A stretch of 42,019 nucleotides of DNA, taken from IMG/VR virus record IMGVR_UViG_3300034418_008782, positions 1 to 42,019 of that record; one strand, written 5' to 3'. This document shows, one piece after another, positions 6,511 to 37,173 of this stretch. This DNA comes from a virus. The stretch's first letter is position 1. Each line of letters starts with the position of its first letter. A program made the translations under genes and the position numbers. The notes under the pieces were generated by a model, which made no database searches, was not told where the DNA came from, and saw only the letters and a program-made list of their open reading frames with translations.

Positions 6511-6553
6511 TCTACTCAAATACTTTTGGAGGTAATCAGTAAAACAATTGGGA

Positions 6554-6883
6554 ATGCACATCGTAGCGGACGTAACCAAGTGTTCGCAGCCTTGGAAGTT
6601 AGATGATGAGTATATCGTACTCAGCGTACTTACAGATGGGGCAATAAGTTGTGGAGCAACCATCCTAGGCAAACAGTCTCATAAGTTTACACCGCAAGGA
6701 GTGACTGCTATAATAATGCTAGCCGAGTCTCACATTTCTATCCACACATGGCCCGAAAATGGGTCGTACGCATTCGATGCTTATACTTGTGGTGACATGG
6801 ACTGTGAGTACGCTTTCAACAAAATCTTCACTTCTTTGGGAAGTGGGGACGTAAGCAAACATGTGCTGCATCGGTCACTATGA
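6554..6883 (+). CDS. speD: S-adenosylmethionine decarboxylase proenzyme
   Basis: 109 aa. Pyruvoyl enzyme that decarboxylates SAM for spermidine synthesis. The self-cleavage region LAESHISIHTWPE is intact: cleavage is expected between Glu58 and Ser59, making the pyruvoyl group from Ser59. His64 and Cys79 (AYTCGD) match the processing and catalytic residues of the bacterial class. Length fits the short prokaryotic form. GGAGG lies at 6529-6533; an in-frame TTG at 6548 is possible but the ATG at 6554 aligns with the usual start. SpeD is a recurrent cyanophage auxiliary gene; polyamines may help condense phage DNA. Confidence 0.93.
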   Translation: MHIVADVTKCSQPWKLDDEYIVLSVLTDGAISCGATILGKQSHKFTPQGVTAIIMLAESHISIHTWPENGSYAFDAYTCGDMDCEYAFNKIFTSLGSGDVSKHVLHRSL

Positions 6884-11479: not shown

Positions 11480-11506
11480 TTTACGTCTTGGTGTGTCGTG
11501 TATAAT
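11480..11506 (+). promoter_or_regulatory. TTTAC-N16 class promoter
   Basis: TTTACG (11480-11485), 15-bp spacer, TATAAT (11501-11506). Predicted +1 is 11513, exactly the ATG of the GIY-YIG gene. Confidence 0.65.
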
Positions 11507-11512
11507 AAGTGT

Positions 11513-12145
11513 ATGAATGACTACTACACCTATGCCTTTTTACGTGAAGATGGAACACCCTACTATGTTGGGAAAGGGAAAGGAAGGAGGTGTTTTGATA
11601 AGAAGAGAACCATCAACCCCCCATCAGACCCGGATCGGATCATTATACTAAAAAAGAACCTCACAGAAGAAGAGGCGTTTAGACACGAAATCTACATGAT
11701 CTATGTCTTAGGGAAAAAGAAACACGGAGGTCTCCTACACAACATCACTGACGGGGGAGAGGGGGTCTCTGGGATGGTCCATTCTGAAGAATCCAGAGAG
11801 AAGATAGGGAAGGCTTTTAGAGGAAAGAAACTGTCAGAAAAACACAAGGAGAAGTTGAGACAACGGAAAATAGGGAACACCTGGAATAGAGGTAAAAAGA
11901 TCTCCGAAGAACAGAAAGAAAAAATCAGACAAACCCTAAAAGGTGTCCCTCATTCAGAAGAAAGAAAAATGAGAAACAGTCAGTCTCATATGGGAAACAA
12001 ACAGTCTGATGAGACCAAAGAAAAGATCGGAAATGCCATGAGAGGTTCACGTTTTTGGAACAATGGAGAAATAAATGTCCGTAGTCGTGAGTGGCCCGGT
12101 GAAGGATTTGTCCTTGGAATGAAGAAGAGAAAGAAAAATGATTGA
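11513..12145 (+). CDS. GIY-YIG homing endonuclease
   Basis: 210 aa. N-terminal GIY-YIG-type nuclease (YTYAFLREDGTPYYVGKGKGRR: the two Tyr-x-Tyr/YxG strands and catalytic Arg), with RHEIYMI supplying the conserved Glu. About residues 85-185 hold NUMOD3-like repeats (HSEESREKIGKAFRGKK and similar), a DNA-binding module of freestanding homing endonucleases. The C-terminus has WNNGEINV...WPGEGF, a motif shared with two other endonucleases in this window. It is a selfish element rather than a housekeeping gene. An in-frame GTG at 11498 overlaps the promoter and is rejected. Confidence 0.9.
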   Translation: MNDYYTYAFLREDGTPYYVGKGKGRRCFDKKRTINPPSDPDRIIILKKNLTEEEAFRHEIYMIYVLGKKKHGGLLHNITDGGEGVSGMVHSEESREKIGKAFRGKKLSEKHKEKLRQRKIGNTWNRGKKISEEQKEKIRQTLKGVPHSEERKMRNSQSHMGNKQSDETKEKIGNAMRGSRFWNNGEINVRSREWPGEGFVLGMKKRKKND

Positions 12146-16834: not shown

Positions 16835-17308
16835 ATGGCAATCACTCCCAACTCCTTCGACTTTATCGAATTCATCAACGAGGGCTACGCTTCTCAACAA
16901 AAATATGCCGAAGCTGCCGGAATCAAAGGCCCCCTCGATGACCTTTCTCCTGACCAGCGTTATAGCAGAATTATCGAGCACCTCTCTCACTTAATTGAAG
17001 AAGTAATTGAAGCGCGGTGTTTCGTGCCCAGACGGTCCTGGAAACTTTCTGAGCCGTCTTACTTGAATGACGAAAATCTTCGTGCAGAGTTTATCGCTGA
17101 GCTGTTTGACGTCACACTGTTTTTCAGGTCTGTCCTCGCTTACGCCGGTATTACAGGCGAAGAGTTTGCGGAAATCTCTGCTTCCAAAATGGGTTACAAT
17201 GCCATTCGGAAAGACCATATCACAAACGGCACGGAATCAGCAGTCCAAGACCCTATTGCTGAATTGAAAGGAGATTGCCCATCTTCCACCTTTCATCACT
17301 CTGTATGA
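16835..17308 (+). CDS. All-alpha dUTPase / dCTPase-type pyrophosphatase
   Basis: 157 aa, all-alpha NTP-pyrophosphatase (MazG/dimeric dUTPase) superfamily, which hydrolyses dNTPs to dNMP plus PPi. Metal-binding helices are visible: [10 protein letters not shown] (51-60, EExxE) and [10 protein letters not shown] (84-93, Glu89 and Asp92), then a third helix and [16 protein letters not shown], resembling the C-terminal KNxxNxxRQDxGY of T4 gp56. T4 gp56 is a dCTPase-dUTPase that keeps plain cytosine out of hmC DNA. With a dCMP-hydroxymethylase-like enzyme nearby, the same role is attractive, but dUTP or other dNTPs remain possible substrates. The end overlaps the GIY-YIG start. Confidence 0.75.
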
Positions 17309-18126
17309 TAAATGATTTTTACACTTACGCTTATTTGAGAGAGGACAAAACCCCTTACTACATCGGGAAAGGTAAGGGGCGCCGCGCATTCAAATGCCAT
17401 GGAAGAGTCCCCGTCCCTCCTAAAGACCGTATTCTCTTCCTAAAGACAGGCCTCTCAGAAGAAGAGGCCTTTCGTCATGAGATTTACATGATTAGTGTGT
17501 TTGGTCGGAAAAACAATGGGACCGGAATTCTCCTAAACTTCACTGACGGTGGTGAAGGTGGTAGCGGGATGGTGCATTCGCAAGATTTCAAAGACCGCCG
17601 CAAAATGCTACGTTTGGCCTGGTTTGAGACTCTCTCAGAAGAAGAAAGAGAGATTGAAAATCAAAAAATCTCTGATGGTATTTCTCTTTATTGGGAAGAA
17701 TTAGACGAAGATAAAAGGAATGAAAGAAGTCAAGCGGTCAGCCGCGGAATGAATTCTAGGACACTTGAGGAAAAGAATAAGTGGAAGGAAAACGTTTCAA
17801 AAACCCAACTAAATCGCACCGATGAAGAGAAAACAGAAATTAGGAAACGTATTTCTGAGGCCACGAAAGAGGGACGGAGTAAGATGACTGAAGAGGAGAA
17901 AAGGAAGATGGTGGAAAACCAACAAAAGTCTCTAAATGCTCGTCCTGAAGAGGCGAAAAGAAAGCAGTACGAAAAGGTGGGTGAGGCAACTAGAAAACGA
18001 CTTGCAATAAAACATCCCAATAGAGGGAAACATTGGTGGACTAACGGTGAAACCGACGCACTAGTCTTCGAATGCCCGGGACCTGAGTGGGTAAGAGGGA
18101 GGCGACATTCAAATAATGAAACATGA
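17305..18126 (+). CDS. GIY-YIG homing endonuclease
   Basis: 273 aa. The start [10 protein letters not shown] aligns with the other GIY-YIG gene (MNDYYTYAF). Nuclease signature [20 protein letters not shown] and RHEIYMI near residue 70; the middle (about 95-230) is Glu/Lys-rich helical and NUMOD-like; the C-terminus has [11 protein letters not shown]...[10 protein letters not shown]. It is inserted between the pyrophosphatase and glycosyltransferase genes with ATGA overlaps on both sides and no own promoter, so it relies on coupled translation. A TTG at 17275 just behind AAAGGAG is a less likely start. Confidence 0.9.
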
Positions 18127-19145
18127 AAATCTTGATTACAGGTCAAACGACGCTGGACTGCGTTGAAGGCCACTATCTAAACCAACAACTCAGAGTTATT
18201 CCTGGAGTGGTCGCCCTTGTAAGCGGTCTGCGAGAGTTGGGTCACGAAGTTGAGCAACGTATCGTAAAATGGGGAGATGACCTTGACCAATACGATCGAA
18301 TCATCACATTCCTTGGACCCACAGACACATTCTGTGCGGGATACACCGATGGGGCTTTATGGACACTCACTCGAGAAGACACCCTTTGCGCCATTTCTGA
18401 TTGGCAGACCGACCGTGTATTCCTCGACCCACTCAAGAAAGAGGCGAAATGGAAGGAGGTATTTGCGGGACAACTCAATGGGGCTACTGACCGCGAGAAG
18501 ATTGACGAGCTCCATGACCAATGGTTGTGTGGCCGTAGAATCCTCCTCACCGCTTTTGAAGGAGGCGACCTTGACCTTGTTTTCTCAAAGGCGTCCAAGA
18601 AAATGGCCGCCACAGAGCGTATTTGTGAGGGATACTCGTTATTTGGATACGACCCTAACCCTCTTCTCCCATTGCGTCGACCGAAAACCACTTTTGATGC
18701 GAAGATTCGCCAATGGATTGTTGCCGGATTGTCGGAGGCCAATCGTAAGTCGTGGAAAAAACTAAAACCGACTTTGCCCGTTGTTGAGGTTGGTAAGCGG
18801 GGTCAAGGCGGGATTCGTATGCCCGAAGATGAAATTGTGGATTACTTCGCTAAATCCTGGTATCATTGGCTGCCAGGATATTCCCACGCGGGAAGTGGAT
18901 GGTGGAGAGCGAGGTTTCAACAACTGTCAGACGGACTGGTAATTTCCGTTTGTGCCGACCCCAAAGAAGCCGAGATTTTTGGTCCGTCCTGGGTTATCGC
19001 TGACCCTCTTTCCTTGGAGGAGATGAGTGACAAGGAGTTGCACGAGTTGGCAGTACAGCAAAGGAAAGAGTTTGTAGAGCGGCATCCAACGGATGATTTT
19101 GGAAAAAGCCGTAGTCTTGTCAGGCTGGAAGAGTTTGTCAGTTGA
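18123..19145 (+). CDS. Putative GT-B-type glycosyltransferase
   Basis: 340 aa. Rossmann-like N-terminus [16 protein letters not shown], then [23 protein letters not shown] and [10 protein letters not shown]. This pattern (GHEV, yD-hydrophobic, DDWQ-like) occurs in phage glycosyltransferases that I associate with base-modification clusters. The C-terminal half ([45 protein letters not shown]) has the GT-B nucleotide-sugar-domain layout. Given an adjacent UDP-galactopyranose mutase and a hydroxymethylase-like gene, transfer of galactofuranose to hmC in DNA is the best guess; glycosylation of a virion or cell-surface target is the alternative. The stop overlaps operator 6. Confidence 0.62.
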
Positions 19146-19494: not shown

Positions 19495-19513
19495 AGTGGT
19501 AAAGTTTACCACT
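19495..19513 (+). promoter_or_regulatory. 19-bp perfect palindrome before the ParB-FkbM gene
   Basis: AGTGGTAAAGTTTACCACT: two 9-bp arms around one central G, starting 2 nt after the previous stop and 19 nt before the ATG at 19532. It could be an operator, possibly for the ParB/HTH half of the encoded protein. As RNA it folds into an 8-bp stem with a 3-nt loop but has no T-tract. Confidence 0.6.
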
Positions 19514-19531: not shown

Positions 19532-20812
19532 ATGAAAGTTTCTCTAGACAGCATCACGATCGATTCATCGTTTCAGTATCGAATAACTGGCACCAATAAA
19601 GAAGTAGTGAAAGACTACGTCCTTTCGATGGAAAGGGGGGATTCATTCCCCCCTCTTGTTGTATTTGAAACTGGAGATAAACTCCTTCTTGTCGATGGAT
19701 TTCATAGATACGAAGCGTACCAGAATCGGGGGACCTCGGAAGTAGAGGTAGAAAAGAAGAAAGGGACGAAGGAGGAGGCACTCCATTTTGCCCGTTACGA
19801 AGCGAATCGTAAAAACGGGATGCGAATGACCAATGCTGACAAGGCAAAAATCGTCACAGAAACACTATTGGACCCCGCATATTCTAGTATGTCTCTTAGA
19901 CAAATCGCGGACCTATGTAAGGTGACCCATCCAACCGTCCTCAAACATAAGGAGAAACTAAATTCGCAAACTCCTGAAAAGAAAACCTCCTTTTCCTCCA
20001 AGTCCGTCACATCTTTCATCGGACTCCTAAATTCTGAAACCGAGGTCCCCGAGAATCTTTTGAAGGTTTTGGAGAAAGGAATCAAATCGAGGTTGTATGG
20101 GGAAAAATCCCTTCCTCTTGAATACCATGGGACTACGGACTTCGTTTATCCCGCGGGTAGTGGAAGTGAAAGCGCAATCAACGAGGCGTACCTTTTACGA
20201 GACTACGGCGGTCTTCCTAGTATTGTCCCATTACGGGGTAAGGTAGTGATGGATTGCGGAGGGCACATTGGATGTTTTTCTCGTAGGGTGATGGAGGAGG
20301 GAGCGAAGAAAGTGCATACGTACGAGCCGTTTCCCTCATGTCACGAAGCACTCGTGATGAATCTCAAAGGATTGAATTGTGAAATCAATCAGTTGGCACT
20401 CACAACAAAAGAAAAGGGAGGGGAGCGCCTCTCCTTCTATTACAGAGATGGAAGACTTGAGGCCAGCTCGCTTGTAAGGAAATCCAACGCTATAATGGCG
20501 CATTACGGCTATCAGGAAACAAGTGTCCCAACCATTTCATTTTGGGATGAGGTGGAGCGAATCCAACCTGAGGTTGTGAAAATGGATATTGAAGGAGAAG
20601 AATGGGAAATCCTCCAAGAAAGGGAATTCCCTAACTATGTCAAACACATCCTTATCGAAGTCCATCACATCGCAAGTAAAGGAATCGACGCAGCGGAAGA
20701 GTTAGTAAGGAATGCGATGCCTAACGCTGAGTTGAAATTCAAAAATTCTCTGTTTATCTTCAATAAGAAAGACAAACCCATCAACGCCCAATTCGTATTT
20801 AGCAGGAAATGA
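19532..20812 (+). CDS. ParB/Srx-HTH domain fused to FkbM methyltransferase
   Basis: 426 aa. Residues 1-95: ParB/sulfiredoxin-like domain (ITIDSSFQYR, FPPLVVFETGDKLLLVDGFH with GFHR at 56-59, RYEANRKNG). Residues about 115-142: helix-turn-helix (SLRQIADLCKVTHPTVLKHK). Residues about 195-420: FkbM-type SAM methyltransferase, motif I VVMDCGGHIGCFS (238-250), acidic EPF (265-267), and KMDIEGEEWEIL (350-361). FkbM enzymes usually O-methylate sugars; ParB-HTH regions bind DNA. The fusion therefore suggests methylation of a sugar carried on DNA, or DNA-guided regulation. It lies between a glycosyltransferase and a UDP-galactopyranose mutase. The GTG at 19496 lies in the palindrome and is not the likely start. 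Confidence 0.82.
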   Translation: MKVSLDSITIDSSFQYRITGTNKEVVKDYVLSMERGDSFPPLVVFETGDKLLLVDGFHRYEAYQNRGTSEVEVEKKKGTKEEALHFARYEANRKNGMRMTNADKAKIVTETLLDPAYSSMSLRQIADLCKVTHPTVLKHKEKLNSQTPEKKTSFSSKSVTSFIGLLNSETEVPENLLKVLEKGIKSRLYGEKSLPLEYHGTTDFVYPAGSGSESAINEAYLLRDYGGLPSIVPLRGKVVMDCGGHIGCFSRRVMEEGAKKVHTYEPFPSCHEALVMNLKGLNCEINQLALTTKEKGGERLSFYYRDGRLEASSLVRKSNAIMAHYGYQETSVPTISFWDEVERIQPEVVKMDIEGEEWEILQEREFPNYVKHILIEVHHIASKGIDAAEELVRNAMPNAELKFKNSLFIFNKKDKPINAQFVFSRK

Positions 20813-20814
20813 TT

Positions 20815-20961
20815 ATGAAAACGTTTGACGACCTTGAGTATGGAGAGCAGCGGGAAATCCTCACTGAATTCCTTCTCGCCGAGTATGAAGAGCAACTTCA
20901 CTCTACAGGAATAGGCGACCTCCTCGAAGAAGCAGAATCACTTGGTTTTGAGTTGAAATGA
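20815..20961 (+). CDS. Hypothetical acidic protein (48 aa)
   Basis: Starts just after the ParB-FkbM stop; an in-frame ATG at 20809 is an alternative. Glu/Leu-rich helical (EILTEFLLAEYEEQL). ATGA overlap with the mutase gene, so it is co-translated with it. No family recognised. Confidence 0.6.
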   Translation: MKTFDDLEYGEQREILTEFLLAEYEEQLHSTGIGDLLEEAESLGFELK

Positions 20962-22070
20962 AAATCTTAGTAGTCGGCTCCGGAATCGCAGGAGCAGTTG
21001 TCGCTTGGGAGTGTGCTGAAGCGGGCCACCAAGTAACCGTATTTGAGAAATCCGGCCATGTTGGCGGGAATTGCCGTGACTACAATAACGAATACGGAGA
21101 GAAAATCCACGCGGAGGGTCCTCACCTTTTCCATACTAGCGCGGACTCCATCGCTGTGAAGTGGCTATCTCAATTTACTGAATGGACCCATTACGAGCAC
21201 CGAGTCAGGGCACTATTGGAGGACGGCCGCACAACTCCTCTTCCGGTCAATCAAACTACTCTCGAGGATGTTTTTGGAGTGAAATTCCTAACACCTGATG
21301 ATGCCAGGAAATTCCTGGATGACCTCAGAGAAAAGGATATAGTAGCACCAACCAACTCAGACCAAGTCTTCCTGAAGTCAGTAGGGGCCACTCTGGCAGA
21401 CATATTTTTCCGTCCTTACACTCTCAAACATTGGGGTCGGCCTGCGACAGAAATTGAGGCAAAGGTTGGAGCACGAATCCCAACTCGGACTGACCGAGAT
21501 GACCGCTACTTCACTGACGCTTTCCAAAAAATGCCGACGGATGGATTCACTCCCATTTTTGAGAAAATCTTCTCTCATCCAAACATCGATTTGGTGCTCA
21601 ACAAATCCCACAACTGCCGAGAGAATGTATCCTTCGACAAAATCTTTCTTTCCTGCCCCATTGACGAATACTACGACTACGAGTTTGGTCGTCTTCCGTA
21701 TCGCTCTGTCAAATTTGTGGAAGGAGTAGTTGATGAGGACCAAAGTGCGACTACCATAAATTTCACAGACGACGGTATTTACACTCGCTCCACTCAGTGG
21801 AGTTTGATTCCTACCTCAGGTCGTAGGAAGGATGGGAAGTCTACGGTGACCTTGGAGGTCCCTTGTGACCCTGCCGAAAACGAAGGGAAGTGTTATTATC
21901 CCGTGAGGAATGAGGAATCTCTAAATCTCTATTCGAAATATGCGGAGCTGGCAGAAAAAGATGACCTCACATTCATCGGGCGATTGGGTCAATTTATCTA
22001 CTATGACATGGCACCCTGCATCAACGCAACTCACATTATTGTAAAGAGATTTCTAGATGGAATTCACTGA
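20958..22070 (+). CDS. glf: UDP-galactopyranose mutase
   Basis: 370 aa, the usual length for bacterial Glf. Flavoenzyme interconverting UDP-galactopyranose and UDP-galactofuranose. FAD-binding GSGIAGAVVAWECAEAG (7-23) and VFEKSGHVGGNCRD, the family signature GPHLFHT (about 55-61), LPVNQTTLEDVF, and the C-terminal block CYYPVRNEESLNLYSKYAEL with FIGRLGQFIYYDM are all present. UDP-galactofuranose normally feeds cell-surface polysaccharide; in a phage next to a glycosyltransferase and a sugar-methyltransferase-like fusion it may supply the donor for DNA or virion glycosylation. Its end overlaps the HNH gene by 14 nt. Confidence 0.92.
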   Translation: MKILVVGSGIAGAVVAWECAEAGHQVTVFEKSGHVGGNCRDYNNEYGEKIHAEGPHLFHTSADSIAVKWLSQFTEWTHYEHRVRALLEDGRTTPLPVNQTTLEDVFGVKFLTPDDARKFLDDLREKDIVAPTNSDQVFLKSVGATLADIFFRPYTLKHWGRPATEIEAKVGARIPTRTDRDDRYFTDAFQKMPTDGFTPIFEKIFSHPNIDLVLNKSHNCRENVSFDKIFLSCPIDEYYDYEFGRLPYRSVKFVEGVVDEDQSATTINFTDDGIYTRSTQWSLIPTSGRRKDGKSTVTLEVPCDPAENEGKCYYPVRNEESLNLYSKYAELAEKDDLTFIGRLGQFIYYDMAPCINATHIIVKRFLDGIH

Positions 22071-22647
22071 AGAAACACTAAGGAAGTTTGTCGAAGATTG
22101 TCACAAAAAATACGACAAGGAGGGGTGGATTGGTCCGTTTGAAATGGCGCACCATCCCTTACCTAGATGTCTAGGGGGCACCGACATGGTGAAACTTGAA
22201 AAACCTGACCATTGTATTCATGACGTGATTCAATCAGAAGTCTATCAACAAAATTCTTTCTATGGAAACGCAATCCACTATTTAGTTGGAGAGTGGGAAT
22301 TCCTTATCCCTATTTTCAAAAAGTGGAAGCGAATTACGGCCGACGAAAATCGTCCGTCACCTGAGTTTTTTAGAAGACTCGCTCTAGAGAGAAGTGAAAA
22401 TGGTACTTTGCCGGCTCAAATCTCTAGTAAAGAAGGGACTCACCCTTGGCAGACTGAAGAATGGGGTGATTCCGTAAGAAAAAGAAACATTGAAAAATAC
22501 GAAAATGGGACTCATTATTGTTTGACAGAAAAACACAAAGAAAAATGGGGGGAAATGGTAAGTCAAAAAACTTTGTGTGAGTGTGGCCGTCTTATTGGGG
22601 GCGGCCCAGGGGGAATGAAACGTCATAAAAGGGCATGTAAACTCTAA
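22057..22647 (+). CDS. HNH-like homing endonuclease with C-terminal Zn finger
   Basis: 196 aa. Residues about 30-56 (MAHHPLPRCLGGTDMVKLEK...HCIHDVI) have the His-His...His spacing of HNH nucleases. The C-terminus CECGRLIGGGPGGMKRHKRA plus a final Cys resembles a small Cys/His zinc finger for DNA binding. It overlaps the end of glf, a typical place for a freestanding homing endonuclease. A structural rather than nuclease role is unlikely; the target is unknown. Confidence 0.7.
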   Translation: MEFTEETLRKFVEDCHKKYDKEGWIGPFEMAHHPLPRCLGGTDMVKLEKPDHCIHDVIQSEVYQQNSFYGNAIHYLVGEWEFLIPIFKKWKRITADENRPSPEFFRRLALERSENGTLPAQISSKEGTHPWQTEEWGDSVRKRNIEKYENGTHYCLTEKHKEKWGEMVSQKTLCECGRLIGGGPGGMKRHKRACKL

Positions 22648-23549: not shown

Positions 23550-24164
23550 ATGCCCATGTCCCAACAAAAACTTGTAATCTTCAGCGGTGGCGATCGAGTT
23601 GGGAAATCAACTCTAATCTCTAACATTCAAAAATTCCTTGGGGAAGAAAACTGTGATGTGTTTCACCATGGTGCTCCACCCTACCACACTTCAAACGTCT
23701 TCGACTTCTATCGAATCAATCGCGACAAATGGTTGGAAGGAGGCAAAAAATGGTGCTTGTTTGACAGAAGTTGGGCTTGCTCGTATTGCCTAGAAGATTG
23801 GCGCCGCCACACTCACGGCCAACTCGACGAAATTGCGAGTGTGGAAATTGAATTCCTTAGGATGGCCGACCAATTCTCAGTTATCCACGTGGCAGTAGAA
23901 AAGCCGTGGCAGTGGTCAGCACCAAAGCACATCGAGGAGCTAGATCAAATGCATGGAGATGCTCCAGCATGGGTCATTCGTGATGAGTATGTAGCCCGAC
24001 AAAAGGAGCATAAGCATTACTATGAAAGGCTCTATGACTTTTATGAAAATGTGACTGCTTTCCCCAGTATGGTGCATTCCCAATCCTTCGCAAAAACAGC
24101 TAGTGAAGCAGAAGCTCGTTATGTAGTAGAAAATGTCAAATCAACGCTCCATTTTTTCGGGTAA
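23550..24164 (+). CDS. P-loop deoxynucleoside/deoxynucleotide kinase
   Basis: 204 aa, thymidylate-kinase/dNK-like P-loop fold. Walker A GGDRVGKST (13-21) and CLFDRSWACSYCLEDWRR (the DRS substrate-binding region of dNK/TMPK enzymes), with VIRDEYVARQKEHKHYYERL as lid/helix. It lies directly before the dCMP-hydroxymethylase-like gene, where T4 uses gp1 to phosphorylate hm-dCMP; this protein is not obviously a gp1 homologue but could do the same job. Substrate is inferred. ATG 23556 is an alternative start two codons in. Confidence 0.75.
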   Translation: MPMSQQKLVIFSGGDRVGKSTLISNIQKFLGEENCDVFHHGAPPYHTSNVFDFYRINRDKWLEGGKKWCLFDRSWACSYCLEDWRRHTHGQLDEIASVEIEFLRMADQFSVIHVAVEKPWQWSAPKHIEELDQMHGDAPAWVIRDEYVARQKEHKHYYERLYDFYENVTAFPSMVHSQSFAKTASEAEARYVVENVKSTLHFFG

Positions 24165-24188: not shown

Positions 24189-25058
24189 ATGCACTCTCTT
24201 TACATAAGCAACACCGTCTCCACTTCTGACAACTGGGATCTGATCTACAAAAAATACCTCGAAGAAATTCTAAATCGGGGATCGATCTTTGAAGGTCGTA
24301 ACGGTGAAACACGTTCAGTATTTGGCTGTAGTGTCACTGTAGATGCTCGTGAAGGTGTTCCCATCACAACTCTTCGTAAACTCCCATTTAAAAATCTTAT
24401 CCGTGAATTCCTCTTTGACATCGGGACAAACACGAATGTTGAAGCGCTTGGAAAGGCGAAGCACTTCTGGGACTTCCTCGCCGACGAAGACGGTTGGCTC
24501 GGTGCTTCAGCATATAATCGACAATGGCGAACTTGGCCTGCTTCACTCCCTGGGTCTGAAATTCCCAATGAACGACTCACCGTATCGGGGGTAGTTGACC
24601 AATTTGAGCGTGTTCGTAAGCTCCTTATCGACACACCAAACTCCCGTCATGGTACCATTATCACAACCAACCCAACAGCGATTGATCCTGCCTGTCCTCC
24701 TTGCCACCTTTCCCTTCAGTTCATGCCCAATGGTAAGTGGCTAGATGTGATGATTCCAGCTCGTAGTAACGACATGGTTGTCGGTTTTCCGCTTGACATC
24801 GCTCGCTACACCATCATCCTTGAGTGTATGGCACGACTCACTGGCTTTGCTGCTCGCTATGTTTACATGCCATCAACCAACTCTCACATTTACGAAAACT
24901 GCTACAGTGTCGCTAAAGACATGATCGTTCGCACAACTCGTTCAAACCCCCGGCTTATAGTCAAAGGAAACCACGCTACATGGGATGATTTCGTCCTTGA
25001 TGACTTCGAACTTGAAGGCTATGATCCCCATGATTCAATAAAAGTTGGAGTCAATTAA
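24189..25058 (+). CDS. dCMP hydroxymethylase-like member of the ThyA family
   Basis: 289 aa, thymidylate-synthase fold. Catalytic Cys172 is in CPPCHLSLQF, the phosphate-binding Arg is in ARSNDMVVGF (191-200), and NSHIYENCY (231-239) matches the ThyA DxHxY region. At the position of the Asn that selects dUMP in thymidylate synthase (PFNIA) it has Asp203 (PLDIA). T4 gp42, dCMP hydroxymethylase, also has Asp here, within RSNDVVFGFRND, and the SND stretch also matches gp42 rather than ThyA. The likely reaction is dCMP plus formaldehyde carried by tetrahydrofolate to 5-hydroxymethyl-dCMP. dCMP methylation or ordinary dTMP synthesis are less likely alternatives. Confidence 0.8.
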   Translation: MHSLYISNTVSTSDNWDLIYKKYLEEILNRGSIFEGRNGETRSVFGCSVTVDAREGVPITTLRKLPFKNLIREFLFDIGTNTNVEALGKAKHFWDFLADEDGWLGASAYNRQWRTWPASLPGSEIPNERLTVSGVVDQFERVRKLLIDTPNSRHGTIITTNPTAIDPACPPCHLSLQFMPNGKWLDVMIPARSNDMVVGFPLDIARYTIILECMARLTGFAARYVYMPSTNSHIYENCYSVAKDMIVRTTRSNPRLIVKGNHATWDDFVLDDFELEGYDPHDSIKVGVN

Positions 25059-31361: not shown

Positions 31362-32834
31362 ATGAAGTTGAATGAAATTGGTTACCCAGTTTTGTCAGAC
31401 GACATCCATTCTAAAGTGTTTGGAGATTTGCATCGTGATGCGCCTGCGCAACGCAAAGTAGATCGTTCTCGTCGTCTCCTTGATCGAGCAAACGTTCCCA
31501 ACCCCATTGACTATCCTGATAACCTTTACACTGGTGATCTCCCTTTACCTAAACTAAAAGGAAATAACATCATTGATCACTTCGAAAAAATCGCTAAAGA
31601 GCAACTCGGCGATTATCCCAAGCTGGCCGAAGAGTTCTCTAAGTGCAAAGTTATTTCACCACCACCTGTTGATGTGCTGAAGTTTGAAGCAGGATGGACT
31701 CGCTACGAACCTGCAAAGAATGGGTGGAAAGTTACTAATGAAGCTCCTAAGGAACGAGCTCTAACATTTGACACTGAGACTTTTGTTGAAGGTGGCAACT
31801 ATCCTATTATCGGCACTGCTCTATCATCCAAAGCTTATTATCTGTGGCTTGCTAAAGAACTTCTTGATCCAACAATTCCTCAAGACGAGTGGGATCAATA
31901 CAACTTGGTTCCACTAACTGAGAATGCTTTTGTTGTTGGGCATAACATCAGTTTTGATCGTGTGCGCGTTTCAAATGCTTATACATTGAAAACAAGTAAA
32001 CCAGAGAACTTTTACTTTGACACACTGAGTAGTCATGTAGCAGTTGCTGGTTTGGCAAGTGGTCAGCGTTGGTTGTACACCTTGACCAACAAAAACCCAG
32101 AGCTTCTTACTCCAGAAGAACAACGTAAACTTCGCTATCGTCCTCGTTGGGTTGATGAAGGTGCTACAAACTCTCTTGTTGCGGCTTATAACTTCCATGT
32201 GTATGAGTCTCGCAAATTCTTTGACGAGAATGCTAAGCCTTTGGATGAAGGTGATAAGTTGGTTCGTCGCATCTTTGTGGATGCCAAGTCACTGCTTGAA
32301 ATTAACGTGATGTTGGAAGATGCAGTTGTTTATGCATTGAAGGATGCTTTCTACACAACTGAGTTGTTCCAAGCAATTTGGCCTCGTTATCGCGAGTGCT
32401 CACCAACTATGGTGCACCTTTCTGGTCATTACTTCCTCAATGGTTCTCGAGTTCCTGTTGCTGATAATTGGTACAAGTGGATCAAGCAAGTTGACAAAGC
32501 ATATTACGATGCACTAGAAGAAGTGCAAGAAATTGCTAAAGATCTCGCCGATGATCTCTACTTGCATTGGAAAGGCATTTACGACAAAGATCGTGATGAC
32601 GCAGCTAAGTGGGTGAATGAAGATCCGTGGCGTAAGCAAATGGATTGGGTTGTCAAAACAGAAAAAGGTCGTTATGCTCACTGCCCAAATTGGTATCGCC
32701 CCTTCAAAAAGGATCCCGATCATCGTGTAACCACCAAATCTAAATTGCTCCACTTTCTTTTGAGGTTGACGTGGAATGGACAACCTATTCAGTGGGTTGA
32801 TGGAATGGGGTGGTGTTATGATGATGGGACCTGA
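31362..32834 (+). CDS. Family-A DNA polymerase, N-terminal part (3'-5' exonuclease)
   Basis: 490 aa. Replicative polymerase, proofreading half. Exo I LTFDTETFV (Asp137, Glu139), Exo II VVGHNISFDR (Asp199), Exo III YALKDAFYT (Tyr324, Asp328). The upstream phrase GWTRYE...GWKV and the inserted spacer domain resemble mitochondrial pol gamma and its phage relatives rather than E. coli Pol I or T7. The frame stops (TGA) right after WCYDDGT, and the palm/finger half resumes past an HNH gene at about 33634. So this is either the 5' part of a gene interrupted by an intron or one subunit of a split polymerase. Confidence 0.88.
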   Translation: MKLNEIGYPVLSDDIHSKVFGDLHRDAPAQRKVDRSRRLLDRANVPNPIDYPDNLYTGDLPLPKLKGNNIIDHFEKIAKEQLGDYPKLAEEFSKCKVISPPPVDVLKFEAGWTRYEPAKNGWKVTNEAPKERALTFDTETFVEGGNYPIIGTALSSKAYYLWLAKELLDPTIPQDEWDQYNLVPLTENAFVVGHNISFDRVRVSNAYTLKTSKPENFYFDTLSSHVAVAGLASGQRWLYTLTNKNPELLTPEEQRKLRYRPRWVDEGATNSLVAAYNFHVYESRKFFDENAKPLDEGDKLVRRIFVDAKSLLEINVMLEDAVVYALKDAFYTTELFQAIWPRYRECSPTMVHLSGHYFLNGSRVPVADNWYKWIKQVDKAYYDALEEVQEIAKDLADDLYLHWKGIYDKDRDDAAKWVNEDPWRKQMDWVVKTEKGRYAHCPNWYRPFKKDPDHRVTTKSKLLHFLLRLTWNGQPIQWVDGMGWCYDDGT

Positions 32835-32842
32835 CTCCCAGG

Positions 32843-32861
32843 TGGAACAATGTTCCAGTCA
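32843..32861 (+). repeat. 19-bp direct repeat flanking the HNH gene, left copy
   Basis: TGGAACAATGTTCCAGTCA, identical to 33591-33609. Each copy contains the palindrome TGGAACA-A-TGTTCCA. The left copy starts 9 nt after the end of the polymerase exonuclease frame. Confidence 0.85.
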
Positions 32862-32864
32862 GAG

Positions 32865-32891
32865 TTTACTGTGTCCAGTAAGAGGTAAAAT
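32865..32891 (+). promoter_or_regulatory. TTTAC-N16 class promoter
   Basis: TTTACT (32865-32870), 15-bp spacer, TAAAAT (32886-32891). Predicted +1 is 32898, the A of the HNH start codon. Confidence 0.65.
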
Positions 32892-32897
32892 AAACCT

Positions 32898-33584
32898 ATG
32901 GACAAAACTCACAAACATCACATCATCCCCCGTAGTCGTGGAGGGTCTGATGAACCAAACAATCTTACTGACATCAACTTTATCGAACACGCCAAACTAC
33001 ACGCCATAGACTATCTAAACGGCGGCCCTAGATTCGACTTCCGACATGAAGGTTGGAAGTGGTTGGACGAGGATCTACGCCAAAAGGTCTTGAACAAGGT
33101 AAGGCAAGAATCTTACGGAAACAGGGGTCGTTGGGGTGGTCGTGACAATGGAGAACCACACCCTTGTGAAGGTCTGAAATGGTGGAATAATGGAGTTGAA
33201 TCGCAGTTATTTAGAGACTCTCCAGGTGATGATTGGGTTGAAGGACGACTATGGGACGATGATTGGACGTCAGACTATGACCGAAGTCATAACAAAAACC
33301 GAAAAATGTGGAACAACGGCACAGAAACCCGTCTCAGTTTTGAATCCCCTGGGCCGGACTGGAAGTTAGGAGATCTGGAAGAAAGAAACAAAAAGAAAGG
33401 ACGGCCAGGGATCCCAAAACAAGAAGAGTGGAGACGCCAACGTTCTGAAGATAGTAAAGGAGAAAAGAACCCATGCTTTGGCAAACAGTGGTGGACGAAT
33501 GGTGATGAGAATGTTTATCTCCGTCAAGATGAAGTCCCTCCCGAAGACTATTATCGCGGTCGCACACTAAAACGTAACCAATAA
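32898..33584 (+). CDS. HNH homing endonuclease within the polymerase locus
   Basis: 228 aa. The HNH motif is at the very N-terminus: KHHIIPRSRGG (about 5-15), EPNNLTDI, then FIEHAKLHAIDYL. The rest carries three copies of a W(W/N)NG...PG..W..GR module (KWWNNGVESQLFRDSPGDDW, KMWNNGTETRLSFESPGPDW, QWWTNGDENVYLRQDEVPPE), also found once in each GIY-YIG enzyme of this window. Own promoter, ATG at +1. It separates the exonuclease and polymerase halves and is flanked by a 19-bp repeat, so it is a mobile insertion. Confidence 0.9.
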   Translation: MDKTHKHHIIPRSRGGSDEPNNLTDINFIEHAKLHAIDYLNGGPRFDFRHEGWKWLDEDLRQKVLNKVRQESYGNRGRWGGRDNGEPHPCEGLKWWNNGVESQLFRDSPGDDWVEGRLWDDDWTSDYDRSHNKNRKMWNNGTETRLSFESPGPDWKLGDLEERNKKKGRPGIPKQEEWRRQRSEDSKGEKNPCFGKQWWTNGDENVYLRQDEVPPEDYYRGRTLKRNQ

Positions 33585-33590
33585 ATCGAC

Positions 33591-33609
33591 TGGAACAATG
33601 TTCCAGTCA
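33591..33609 (+). repeat. 19-bp direct repeat flanking the HNH gene, right copy
   Basis: TGGAACAATGTTCCAGTCA. With its flanking bases this copy is a perfect inverted repeat with 9-bp arms around AAT (33588-33608). The ATG at 33598 that opens the polymerase C-terminal frame lies inside it. Confidence 0.85.
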
Positions 33610-35016
33610 AACACACACTCTCTCTCAACCAAAATGGCACTCGTAAAAATCCCCCATCCCAAAGGCACCACTGACAATGTCGGAGGACTCATCACAAAAG
33701 AGTTTGTGAAGGACATGGAGGTCGGACGACTTGATAGTGAAAACCCCACAGCGAAAAGAGTCCTTGAAGTGGCTAACCTCGTTTCGTACTGGACGGGTGT
33801 TCGTAGCCGTGTTCATGAACGAATCATTGCAAAGGTAGAAAATCCCTACGGTGAAGATGCTTTGTTGATGGCACCTAACATCCTTGTCCATGGCACTGTG
33901 ACCCGTCGAACAGTCGAAAACCTTTTGGTTGTGATGTGTTCTACAAAAAATTGGCGTATCGGTACTGAACTTAAGTCTCGCTTCAAAGCACCTGATGGTT
34001 GGAAGATTGTGATGGCTGACTTCGATGCTCAAGAAATGGGTATTGCTTCTATCTACGCTGATATGTGGGAAGGCGGTTATGTTGGTGCTTCGCCTTTATC
34101 ATACACAGTGTTAGTCGGATCTAAAGAAAATGGATCTGATTCTCACACAGCTCTTGCCCGACAAATCTTCAAAAAAGAATATGAAGGCATTGAGTGGAAG
34201 CATGGCAAAATGCTGAAAGATGGCGAGCCAATTGATAAGGAAACAAAGTCTCTACTTGGAACTTGCCGAGATGTTACAAAAGGTGTGAACTTCGCTGTTC
34301 TGTATGGTGCTGGAATCAAAACTACTGCTAACACCATTCAGAAAGCATTTCCAGAAAGATCAACTGCTGAGTTGAAAAAGTTTGCACAAAATGCATTGGC
34401 TTCTAAGAAAGGGATCAAAAACCCTGAAGGTTATTTTGAAGGTGGATCCGACAGTGGGGCATTCAACATTATGGTAAAAGTTGGAATGAAGAGCAAAGTG
34501 CCTACACTCCCAGCTCTAGGCACTCGCATTTCCAATGCACTTCGTCCAGCGGTTGTCGGTGATGACTTTGCCACAGGTCGAATGAACTTTTGCATTCAGT
34601 CTGCCGGCGCTGAAATGCTAGCAATCATCCTCACAGCTTCACAATGGCTTGCTGATGAGTTCAAAATTCCAGCACAGTTTGCTGTGAGCATTCACGATGA
34701 GTTGAGTTGGTTCGTTCCAGAAAAATATGCTAAGTTGTTTGCTGGTGTGTTCCAAATCGCTCACCTTTACTCTTGGGCAAGGTTCCAAGCAGGATGCGGA
34801 ATCAATGATCTTCCTCTCGCCAGAGCATTCTTCTCTGCTGTGGCCATCGATGATCGCATTCGCAAATCACCTTACGAAGATACAACGACACCATCTAACC
34901 CTCAGGGTAAGACTGAAAAAGCCGGAGAAGAATTCACTATCACTGACTTATTCGAGGATGGCACATTGAAAAAACTACAAACCCGACTTAACCTCATTCA
35001 ACAGGGTGTCCTCTAA
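33598..35016 (+). CDS. Family-A DNA polymerase, C-terminal part (polymerase domain)
   Basis: 472 aa from the first ATG; residues from MALVKIPHPKG (ATG at 33634) look like genuine pol gamma-type sequence, whereas the first twelve look like insert-derived leader. Motif A VMADFDAQEMG (Asp141, Glu146), motif B RDVTKGVNFAVLYGAG (Arg224, Lys228, Phe232, Tyr236), motif C SIHDE (Asp367, Glu368): all catalytic residues are intact. Joined to the N-terminal part it gives a complete pol gamma-like enzyme of about 950 aa. Expression either needs RNA splicing or yields a separate subunit. Confidence 0.88.
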   Translation: MFQSNTHSLSTKMALVKIPHPKGTTDNVGGLITKEFVKDMEVGRLDSENPTAKRVLEVANLVSYWTGVRSRVHERIIAKVENPYGEDALLMAPNILVHGTVTRRTVENLLVVMCSTKNWRIGTELKSRFKAPDGWKIVMADFDAQEMGIASIYADMWEGGYVGASPLSYTVLVGSKENGSDSHTALARQIFKKEYEGIEWKHGKMLKDGEPIDKETKSLLGTCRDVTKGVNFAVLYGAGIKTTANTIQKAFPERSTAELKKFAQNALASKKGIKNPEGYFEGGSDSGAFNIMVKVGMKSKVPTLPALGTRISNALRPAVVGDDFATGRMNFCIQSAGAEMLAIILTASQWLADEFKIPAQFAVSIHDELSWFVPEKYAKLFAGVFQIAHLYSWARFQAGCGINDLPLARAFFSAVAIDDRIRKSPYEDTTTPSNPQGKTEKAGEEFTITDLFEDGTLKKLQTRLNLIQQGVL

Positions 35017-36753: not shown

Positions 36754-37173
36754 ATGAGACGTATAGTAGCAAAACCGAACGACACGTTTCCGAAAATAGC
36801 TTATCGTTATTTTCAGAGCTCGTCAAGGTACAAAGACATCCTAGATGTCAATCCAGGCTATACGTCTGTGGATTTGCCTGTGCCTGGTGACTACATAAAT
36901 CTTCCAGATGACGCTGAACTGACAACGTCAGGGACATTAACTGGCGGTTCATTGGTTACCCAGGTTGGGTCAGAACCACAGGACACACAGAGCTTCTATT
37001 ACCCTTGGGAAACTAAGGGTCAAGTAGTAGTAAGGTGTCTCGATTACACTCCAGAAGTTCTGGAGTACCCAAGGAGACCTAATGGATACACATTGGACTC
37101 CTATGAAGCTGAAAACGGAGTGGAGATTTCTACGTCTGTACTTCTCACTCAGCAATTGTTAAAGGGGGTGTAG
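36754..37173 (+). CDS. LysM-like tail/baseplate protein
   Basis: 139 aa. Residues 1-52 (DTFPKIAYRYFQSSSRYKDI, LDVNPGY, LPVPGDYINLP) have a LysM/tail-protein-X layout as in P2 gpX and T4 gp53-type baseplate or tube-end proteins, which can bind peptidoglycan or the tail hub. The C-terminal region is unassigned. An in-frame TTG two codons upstream is unlikely to be the start. Confidence 0.6.
   Translation: MRRIVAKPNDTFPKIAYRYFQSSSRYKDILDVNPGYTSVDLPVPGDYINLPDDAELTTSGTLTGGSLVTQVGSEPQDTQSFYYPWETKGQVVVRCLDYTPEVLEYPRRPNGYTLDSYEAENGVEISTSVLLTQQLLKGV

Follow-up and report, generated by a model that had tools for sequence, protein, structure and literature searches.

A ParB/Srx-HTH–FkbM methyltransferase fusion encoded within a predicted phage DNA-hypermodification cassette

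Why a virus would join a ParB/Srx-HTH module to an FkbM-type methyltransferase, and what such a protein would methylate, is the question raised by a gene at positions 19532–20812 (plus strand) of a 42-kb linear IMG/VR virus fragment (42,019 nucleotides, referred to here as the window). Characterized FkbM enzymes mostly methylate hydroxyls of sugars or polyketides. Translation of the gene gave a single 426-amino-acid open reading frame with zero internal stops, which is open further 5′ to a GTG at 19496 (438 amino acids) and in which a ParB/Srx-HTH region (about residues 1–146) is followed by a linker and then by the FkbM domain (about residues 191–426). Matches to PHROG 1033 and PF05050 on this one stop-free frame bear out an earlier sequence-only reading, which had described the two parts as a single protein. 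Searching the record with the whole protein returned one match, also free of stops. From residue 131 to residue 239 every in-frame start codon is a TTG (at 177, 180 and 188), so there is no hint of two separate genes, and the GC3 of the two halves is similar (0.45 and 0.48) and inside the range of the other genes of this phage. The uninterrupted frame, the TTG-only starts and the even codon composition therefore indicate that the fusion is real in sequence; the frameshift splitting two proteins that the earlier reading had considered was not seen. We regard it as highly improbable that the gene arose by chimeric assembly or is a rare gene fusion lacking function. The gene is the single example that we found and its junction is seen in the assembled contig, but the frame is long and single, the gene row is tight, GC3 matches across the junction, the catalytic residues are conserved, and ParB and FkbM genes are neighbours in other phages.

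The FkbM-type SAM methyltransferase domain (residues 191–426; 20102–20809, plus strand) matched PF05050 over residues 241–383 (E = 5e-11), scoring 43.4 bits where the curated cut-off is 22.7. PF05050 was the only family to exceed the Pfam cut-off anywhere in the fusion protein, and C5, N4 and N6 DNA methylase domains are absent. Residues D241, G243 and G247 (motif I), E265, K350, D352, E354 and G355 are invariant across 18 phage FkbM relatives, and the K-(M/I)-D-(I/V/C)-E-G signature is intact, reading KMDIEGEE at residues 350–357. A profile of the domain matched the FkbM structure 2py6 best among PDB entries (3e-8), and in the AlphaFold model of the fusion the FkbM core alone is well predicted, with pLDDT mostly >90. 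With a family match above cut-off and intact catalytic motifs, the SAM domain that had been placed at about residues 195–420 was confirmed.

The N-terminal half consists of a ParB/sulfiredoxin-like domain (residues 1–98; 19532–19825, plus strand) and a helical, HTH-like segment (residues 99–146; 19826–19969, plus strand). Residues 1–144 matched PHROG 1033, ‘ParB-like partition protein’ (E = 6e-19), and the Pfam ParB_N family (PF02195) stayed below threshold against the fusion protein. A profile built from residues 1–146 and 30 phage relatives matched ParB/Spo0J structures (7o0n, 1e-6; 1vz0, 3e-6) and the sulfiredoxin structure 6ky4 (1e-7), in agreement with the GFHR-containing ParB-like part of the ParB-like and HTH regions that the earlier reading had placed at residues 1–142. 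The motif, LVDGFHRY at residues 53–60, is common to the phage ParB-module relatives as (L)VDGFHRY. In the HTH-like segment, helices were placed at residues 101–113, 122–129 and 134–144 in a low-confidence AlphaFold model, and the PHROG match extends to residue 144. The C-terminal dimerization domain of ParB partition proteins is absent, and the linker and FkbM domain stand in its place.

DGFHRY is similar to two known boxes, GxxRxxA in ParB and GCHR in sulfiredoxin, and the profile matches both folds, which would fit a nucleotide-binding switch (a CTPase/ATPase clamp or a kinase-like part) that serves regulation or segregation, with FkbM as its effector or passenger. Standalone ParB relatives adjoin DEAD/SNF2 helicases, and a perfect 19-bp palindrome (AGTGGTAAAGTTTACCACT; 19495–19513, no strand assigned) lies 18 bp upstream of the fusion ATG. 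This palindrome is unique within the window and is a possible operator, although a statistically weak candidate: about 0.85 palindromes as perfect are expected by chance in the window, and the number found is only slightly higher. Other perfect palindromes lie at 33588–33608 and 37048–37066; all three have arms of 9 to 10 bp and a 1-bp centre. Other viral contigs contain exact copies of the upstream palindrome, but these are not located beside ParB–FkbM genes. We consider a switch of this kind very unlikely, as the FkbM motifs are intact, an enzyme replaces the C-terminal region of the standalone ParBs, and palindromes of such size are barely commoner in the window than expected.

The genes on either side of the fusion bear on its substrate. 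It sits between a predicted DNA glycosyltransferase gene (18123–19145, plus strand; 340 amino acids, PHROG 14998) and a gene for UDP-galactopyranose mutase (UGM, GLF; 20958–22070, plus strand; PF03275, E = 2.5e-50), and 3.4 kb upstream of a TS-family homologue of the dCMP 5-hydroxymethylase type (24189–25058, plus strand; PF00303, E = 5.5e-51). The sequence-only reading had suggested looking for hydroxymethylase and glycosyltransferase genes alongside the fusion; both are present, together with UGM. The glycosyltransferase had no Pfam match at 0.1, its profile had no PDB match at E of 1 or better, and by these searches it shows no sequence membership in the T4 AGT/BGT DNA glucosyltransferases; its model (AlphaFold2, pLDDT 83) has a two-Rossmann GT-B fold, and all 12 Foldseek matches below 0.001 were glycosyltransferases, with UDP-sugar GT-B enzymes such as SenB on top. 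The TS homologue retains the nucleophilic Cys and carries Asp at the position of E. coli ThyA Asn177. In the alignment, this position is Asp in T4 gp42 and Asn in ThyA and in the SPO1 gp29 dUMP hydroxymethylase, which points to 5-hydroxymethyl-dCMP rather than dTMP as the predicted product of the window enzyme. Directly before it lies a gene for a P-loop deoxynucleotide monophosphate kinase-like protein (23550–24164, plus strand; PHROG 761 thymidylate kinase, E = 2e-5), which has a homologue in the same order in a related contig (L009). No Tet_JBP gene was found in the window record. Because the gene lies inside this predicted 5-hmC and sugar cassette, the fusion probably methylates decorated phage DNA. 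Its involvement with DNA is well supported by gene context, and we put the probability that it acts as an O-methyltransferase directed to DNA within a phage DNA-hypermodification (5-hmC glycosylation) pathway at about 0.6.

Elsewhere in the window, a family-A (mitochondrial-like exonuclease) DNA polymerase gene (31362–35016) lies in two parts around an HNH-like ORF (32898–33584). Homing-endonuclease-like ORFs (GIY-YIG or HNH, by eye) occur at 11498–12145, 17275–18126 and 22057–22647, one of them directly 3′ of the UGM gene. Genes for plastocyanin-like (676–999) and 2Fe-2S ferredoxin-like (1214–1504) proteins, by eye, and for AdoMet decarboxylase (6548–6883; PF02675, E = 6e-29) suggest a phage of a cyanobacterium or a similar host.

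The same cassette recurs in other phages. Scanning 2.9 million viral contigs with an alignment of the glycosyltransferase yielded 213 relatives, and in the 80 loci that were fetched the commonest neighbours were TS homologues (65 ORFs), UGM (60), dCMP deaminase (48) and a GalE-like epimerase (47). The hydroxymethylase Asp was present in 64/64 TS members longer than 200 amino acids (D-type). UGM directly follows the glycosyltransferase in most relatives; the two genes are adjacent in Aeromonas T4-like phages and in phage C48C1, in which a Tet_JBP dioxygenase gene lies just upstream of the pair. The Aeromonas phage phiAS4 carries the pair, and FkbM was not found in its record. We predict that this cassette of D-type TS, dCMP deaminase, GT-B enzyme and UGM, frequently joined by a GalE-like epimerase (glycosyltransferase loci L008–L087; 18123–25058 in the window), specifies a pathway for furanosylated 5-hmC DNA. 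FkbM occurred in 7 of 50 records with the glycosyltransferase–UGM cassette, mostly far from it, and in the nearest syntenic relative (L009) the glycosyltransferase and UGM genes are directly adjacent with no gene between; FkbM is therefore an optional member. Conversely, UGM was not found in any of 8 FkbM-bearing records searched for it, and it is thus no regular partner of FkbM. What lies between glycosyltransferase and UGM varies: L008 has other genes there, one of them encoding a 329-amino-acid protein that has no Pfam match and resembles a further glycosyltransferase. In about 25 of the glycosyltransferase loci, a C5-cytosine-methylase-like gene lies near the glycosyltransferase, UGM and epimerase genes, alongside the nucleotide-level hydroxymethylase; a gene of this type is at L064:8072–9328 (PF00145, E = 3e-14).

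We then considered the FkbM domain across phages, using relatives from two scans with FkbM alignments and neighbour genes annotated with HMMs built by iteration, key members of which were confirmed with Pfam. A DNA-hypermodification gene (Tet_JBP, TAGT, AGT, 5-hmdU DNA kinase or hydroxymethylase) lay within 6 kb in 21 of 49 FkbM lineages, dereplicated at 50% identity, as against 1 of 72 control loci, which were not dereplicated in the same way. We used dereplicated counts because the neighbour statistics partly rest on one large cyanophage lineage, the largest positive cluster, with 42 loci. Among 82 proteins encoded next to phage FkbM genes, TAGT (11, four of them pre-chosen) and HMUDK_hel (5-hmdU DNA kinase; 9) led the Pfam families and ADDT was present in 3; all were absent from the leading families among 76 standalone-ParB neighbours, which listed helicases (Fisher p ~1e-5 to 1e-6). 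At single loci, the closest FkbM relative of the first scan (L172) is followed after 4 bp by a gene matching the Pfam AGT family (‘DNA alpha-glucosyltransferase’; E = 3e-7), and FkbM genes are beside or near TAGT genes in L209, L196, L173 and L177, near a D-type TS in L177 as well, and near Tet_JBP in L173 and L174. In L296, 4 bp separate FkbM from a glycosyltransferase of the window's family, and genes for dCMP deaminase and a D-type TS lie close by; in L060/L061 a diverged FkbM lies between a D-type TS hydroxymethylase and the glycosyltransferase–UGM pair. Other FkbM phages encode an Asn-type (5-hmU) TS (L260, L269, L289, L300, L306, L312 and others), most with a 5-hmdU DNA kinase nearby and some with TAGT or radical-SAM genes, suggesting that O-methylation also takes place in 5-hmU hypermodification; FkbM would thus serve both base types.

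Co-occurrence with hypermodification genes is also seen among phage FkbM relatives more widely, and the possibility raised by the sequence-only reading, that homologues act only in capsular polysaccharide loci, does not hold, as many adjoin DNA-hypermodification genes. The remaining 28 of 49 lineages have no DNA-modification gene within 6 kb; since about half of phage FkbM lineages lack such a context, membership of the family alone proves nothing. These lineages fit an alternative in which the substrate of the fusion would be a surface glycan of the host or the virion, or some other glycan unconnected with DNA, and ParB would be regulatory or incidental. Polysaccharide and natural-product loci are the best-known setting of FkbM, and several viral proteins join an FkbM domain to GT4/GT9-type domains, which are typical of surface glycans. 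Large viral proteins in which GT4-type and FkbM domains are fused (L308, L310, L316, L188, L191 and L200) are apparently outside a DNA-modification context. Published annotation likewise assigns the UGM of two phages to the host cell wall (PMC10611076, PMC6630229). For the window protein, however, a surface glycan is an unlikely acceptor: the glycosyltransferase–UGM pair accompanies a D-type hydroxymethylase and dCMP deaminase in dozens of phages, and the ParB/HTH fusion partner points to DNA.

ParB and FkbM also travel together as separate proteins. A ParB_N-type gene, FkbM and Tet_JBP are adjacent in the Prochlorococcus siphophages MED4-117 (L007:4237–6358) and P-HS2 (L339:15790–17914) and in about 38 related contigs; in P-HS2 they are three separate genes in the order ParB, FkbM, Tet_JBP. 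In existing annotation, the ParB gene is a ‘DNA methylase’ in MED4-117, and all three genes are ‘hypothetical protein’ in P-HS2. In L174 the genes run ParB, Tet_JBP, FkbM, and in L196 two ParB-type genes are followed by TAGT, another methyltransferase and FkbM. The window fusion thus joins two proteins that elsewhere are neighbours. The sequence-only reading had proposed a search for the same fusion in other phages, and no second one was found among the matches listed in pattern-based scans of 72 ParB loci and about 140 FkbM loci. A ParB-profile scan of bacterial genome contigs gave 17 relatives, with 0 fused to FkbM among the matches listed; a single-protein search of IMG/VR with P0001 gave no match, and tblastn against named phages gave no full-length relative.

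The trio raises the question of which hydroxyl is methylated. In the complete 38-kb P-HS2 genome, no glycosyltransferase appears in the 25 of 27 Pfam families listed for its 29 larger proteins, and 40 of 82 FkbM loci have ParB2 plus TETJBP only. The ParB–FkbM–Tet_JBP trio without a glycosyltransferase makes the hydroxymethyl group itself a possible acceptor, in which case FkbM would convert the 5-hydroxymethyl group of the base to a 5-methoxymethyl-pyrimidine, with the glycosyltransferase acting at other positions or competing. For the window we think this improbable, though worth keeping in mind: glycosyltransferase and UGM genes flank the fusion, elsewhere FkbM accompanies TAGT, AGT or glycosyltransferase genes, and known FkbM substrates are mostly sugar or polyketide hydroxyls. 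The earlier proposal of a methylated sugar on DNA is accordingly supported in its DNA part, with glycosyltransferase, UGM and hydroxymethylase providing the hypermodification context, whereas the P-HS2 trio weakens the sugar as the sole acceptor.

On the reading that we prefer, in which the O-methyltransferase acts on DNA as part of a 5-hmC glycosylation pathway, we propose a route in which every activity, the identity of the sugar and the acceptor hydroxyl are predictions. The TS-family enzyme would make 5-hydroxymethyl-dCMP, which the kinase and the polymerase would carry into DNA. UGM would supply a furanose nucleotide sugar, UDP-Galf or possibly UDP-Araf, and the GT-B enzyme would put the sugar, probably Galf or Araf, onto 5-hmC in DNA. 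The ParB/Srx-HTH module would keep the FkbM domain on the DNA, where, with SAM as donor, that domain would methylate a hydroxyl on the attached sugar and so cap the sugar. Such a cap may alter recognition by restriction or glycosylase-type defences.

Glucose, arabinose, amino acids and polyamines are known on phage DNA bases. Fusions of ParBc domains to DNA methyltransferases are described as frequent, and ParBc domains are also found in the context of phage cytosine hypermodification by CmoX (PMC12783734). The window fusion belongs to this known kind, the ParBc–methyltransferase fusions, with an FkbM catalytic domain as a new variant: as in those systems, a ParB-type module is fused to or beside a phage-DNA-modifying SAM enzyme, but the enzyme is of the FkbM hydroxyl O-methyltransferase family rather than a C5, N4 or N6 base methyltransferase or CmoX. 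Like T4 5-hmC glucosylation (gp42 with AGT/BGT) and RB69 arabinosylation (PMC6024577), the cassette combines a hydroxymethylase bearing the T4 gp42 Asp with a GT-B enzyme; it differs in a glycosyltransferase without recognizable sequence kinship to AGT/BGT, in a UGM that implies a furanose donor and in a predicted methylation step, the last of which we did not find described for T4 or RB69 in the literature read. TET/JBP–TAGT clusters (PF12851, PF20691) are similar in that phage FkbM relatives lie directly beside Tet_JBP and TAGT genes, whereas the window has a nucleotide-level hydroxymethylase route, a different glycosyltransferase and no Tet_JBP. P-HS2 and MED4-117 share the ParB and FkbM pair in identical order, but as part of three separate genes, with a different ParB subtype and no recognizable glycosyltransferase.

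Our searches of the accessible literature turned up neither an O-methylated sugar nor a methoxymethyl group on phage DNA, and no paper linking FkbM, UGM or galactofuranose to phage DNA modification; many subscription papers and preprints lie outside that search. We tentatively suggest, at somewhat less than even odds, that phage FkbM proteins form a general, unrecognized class of hypermodification O-methyltransferases acting on sugars or hydroxymethyl groups of 5-hmC or 5-hmU, with ParB modules as DNA-targeting parts, and that the DNA of the window phage carries O-methylated furanosyl-5-hmC. If this is true, the methyl cap could block a second glycosylation, or could let the DNA escape type IV restriction and the DNA-glycosylase defences by which sugared bases are recognized. 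The recurring cassette of glycosyltransferase, UGM and hydroxymethylase predicts furanose-decorated phage DNA, as opposed to the cell-wall role given in published UGM annotations.
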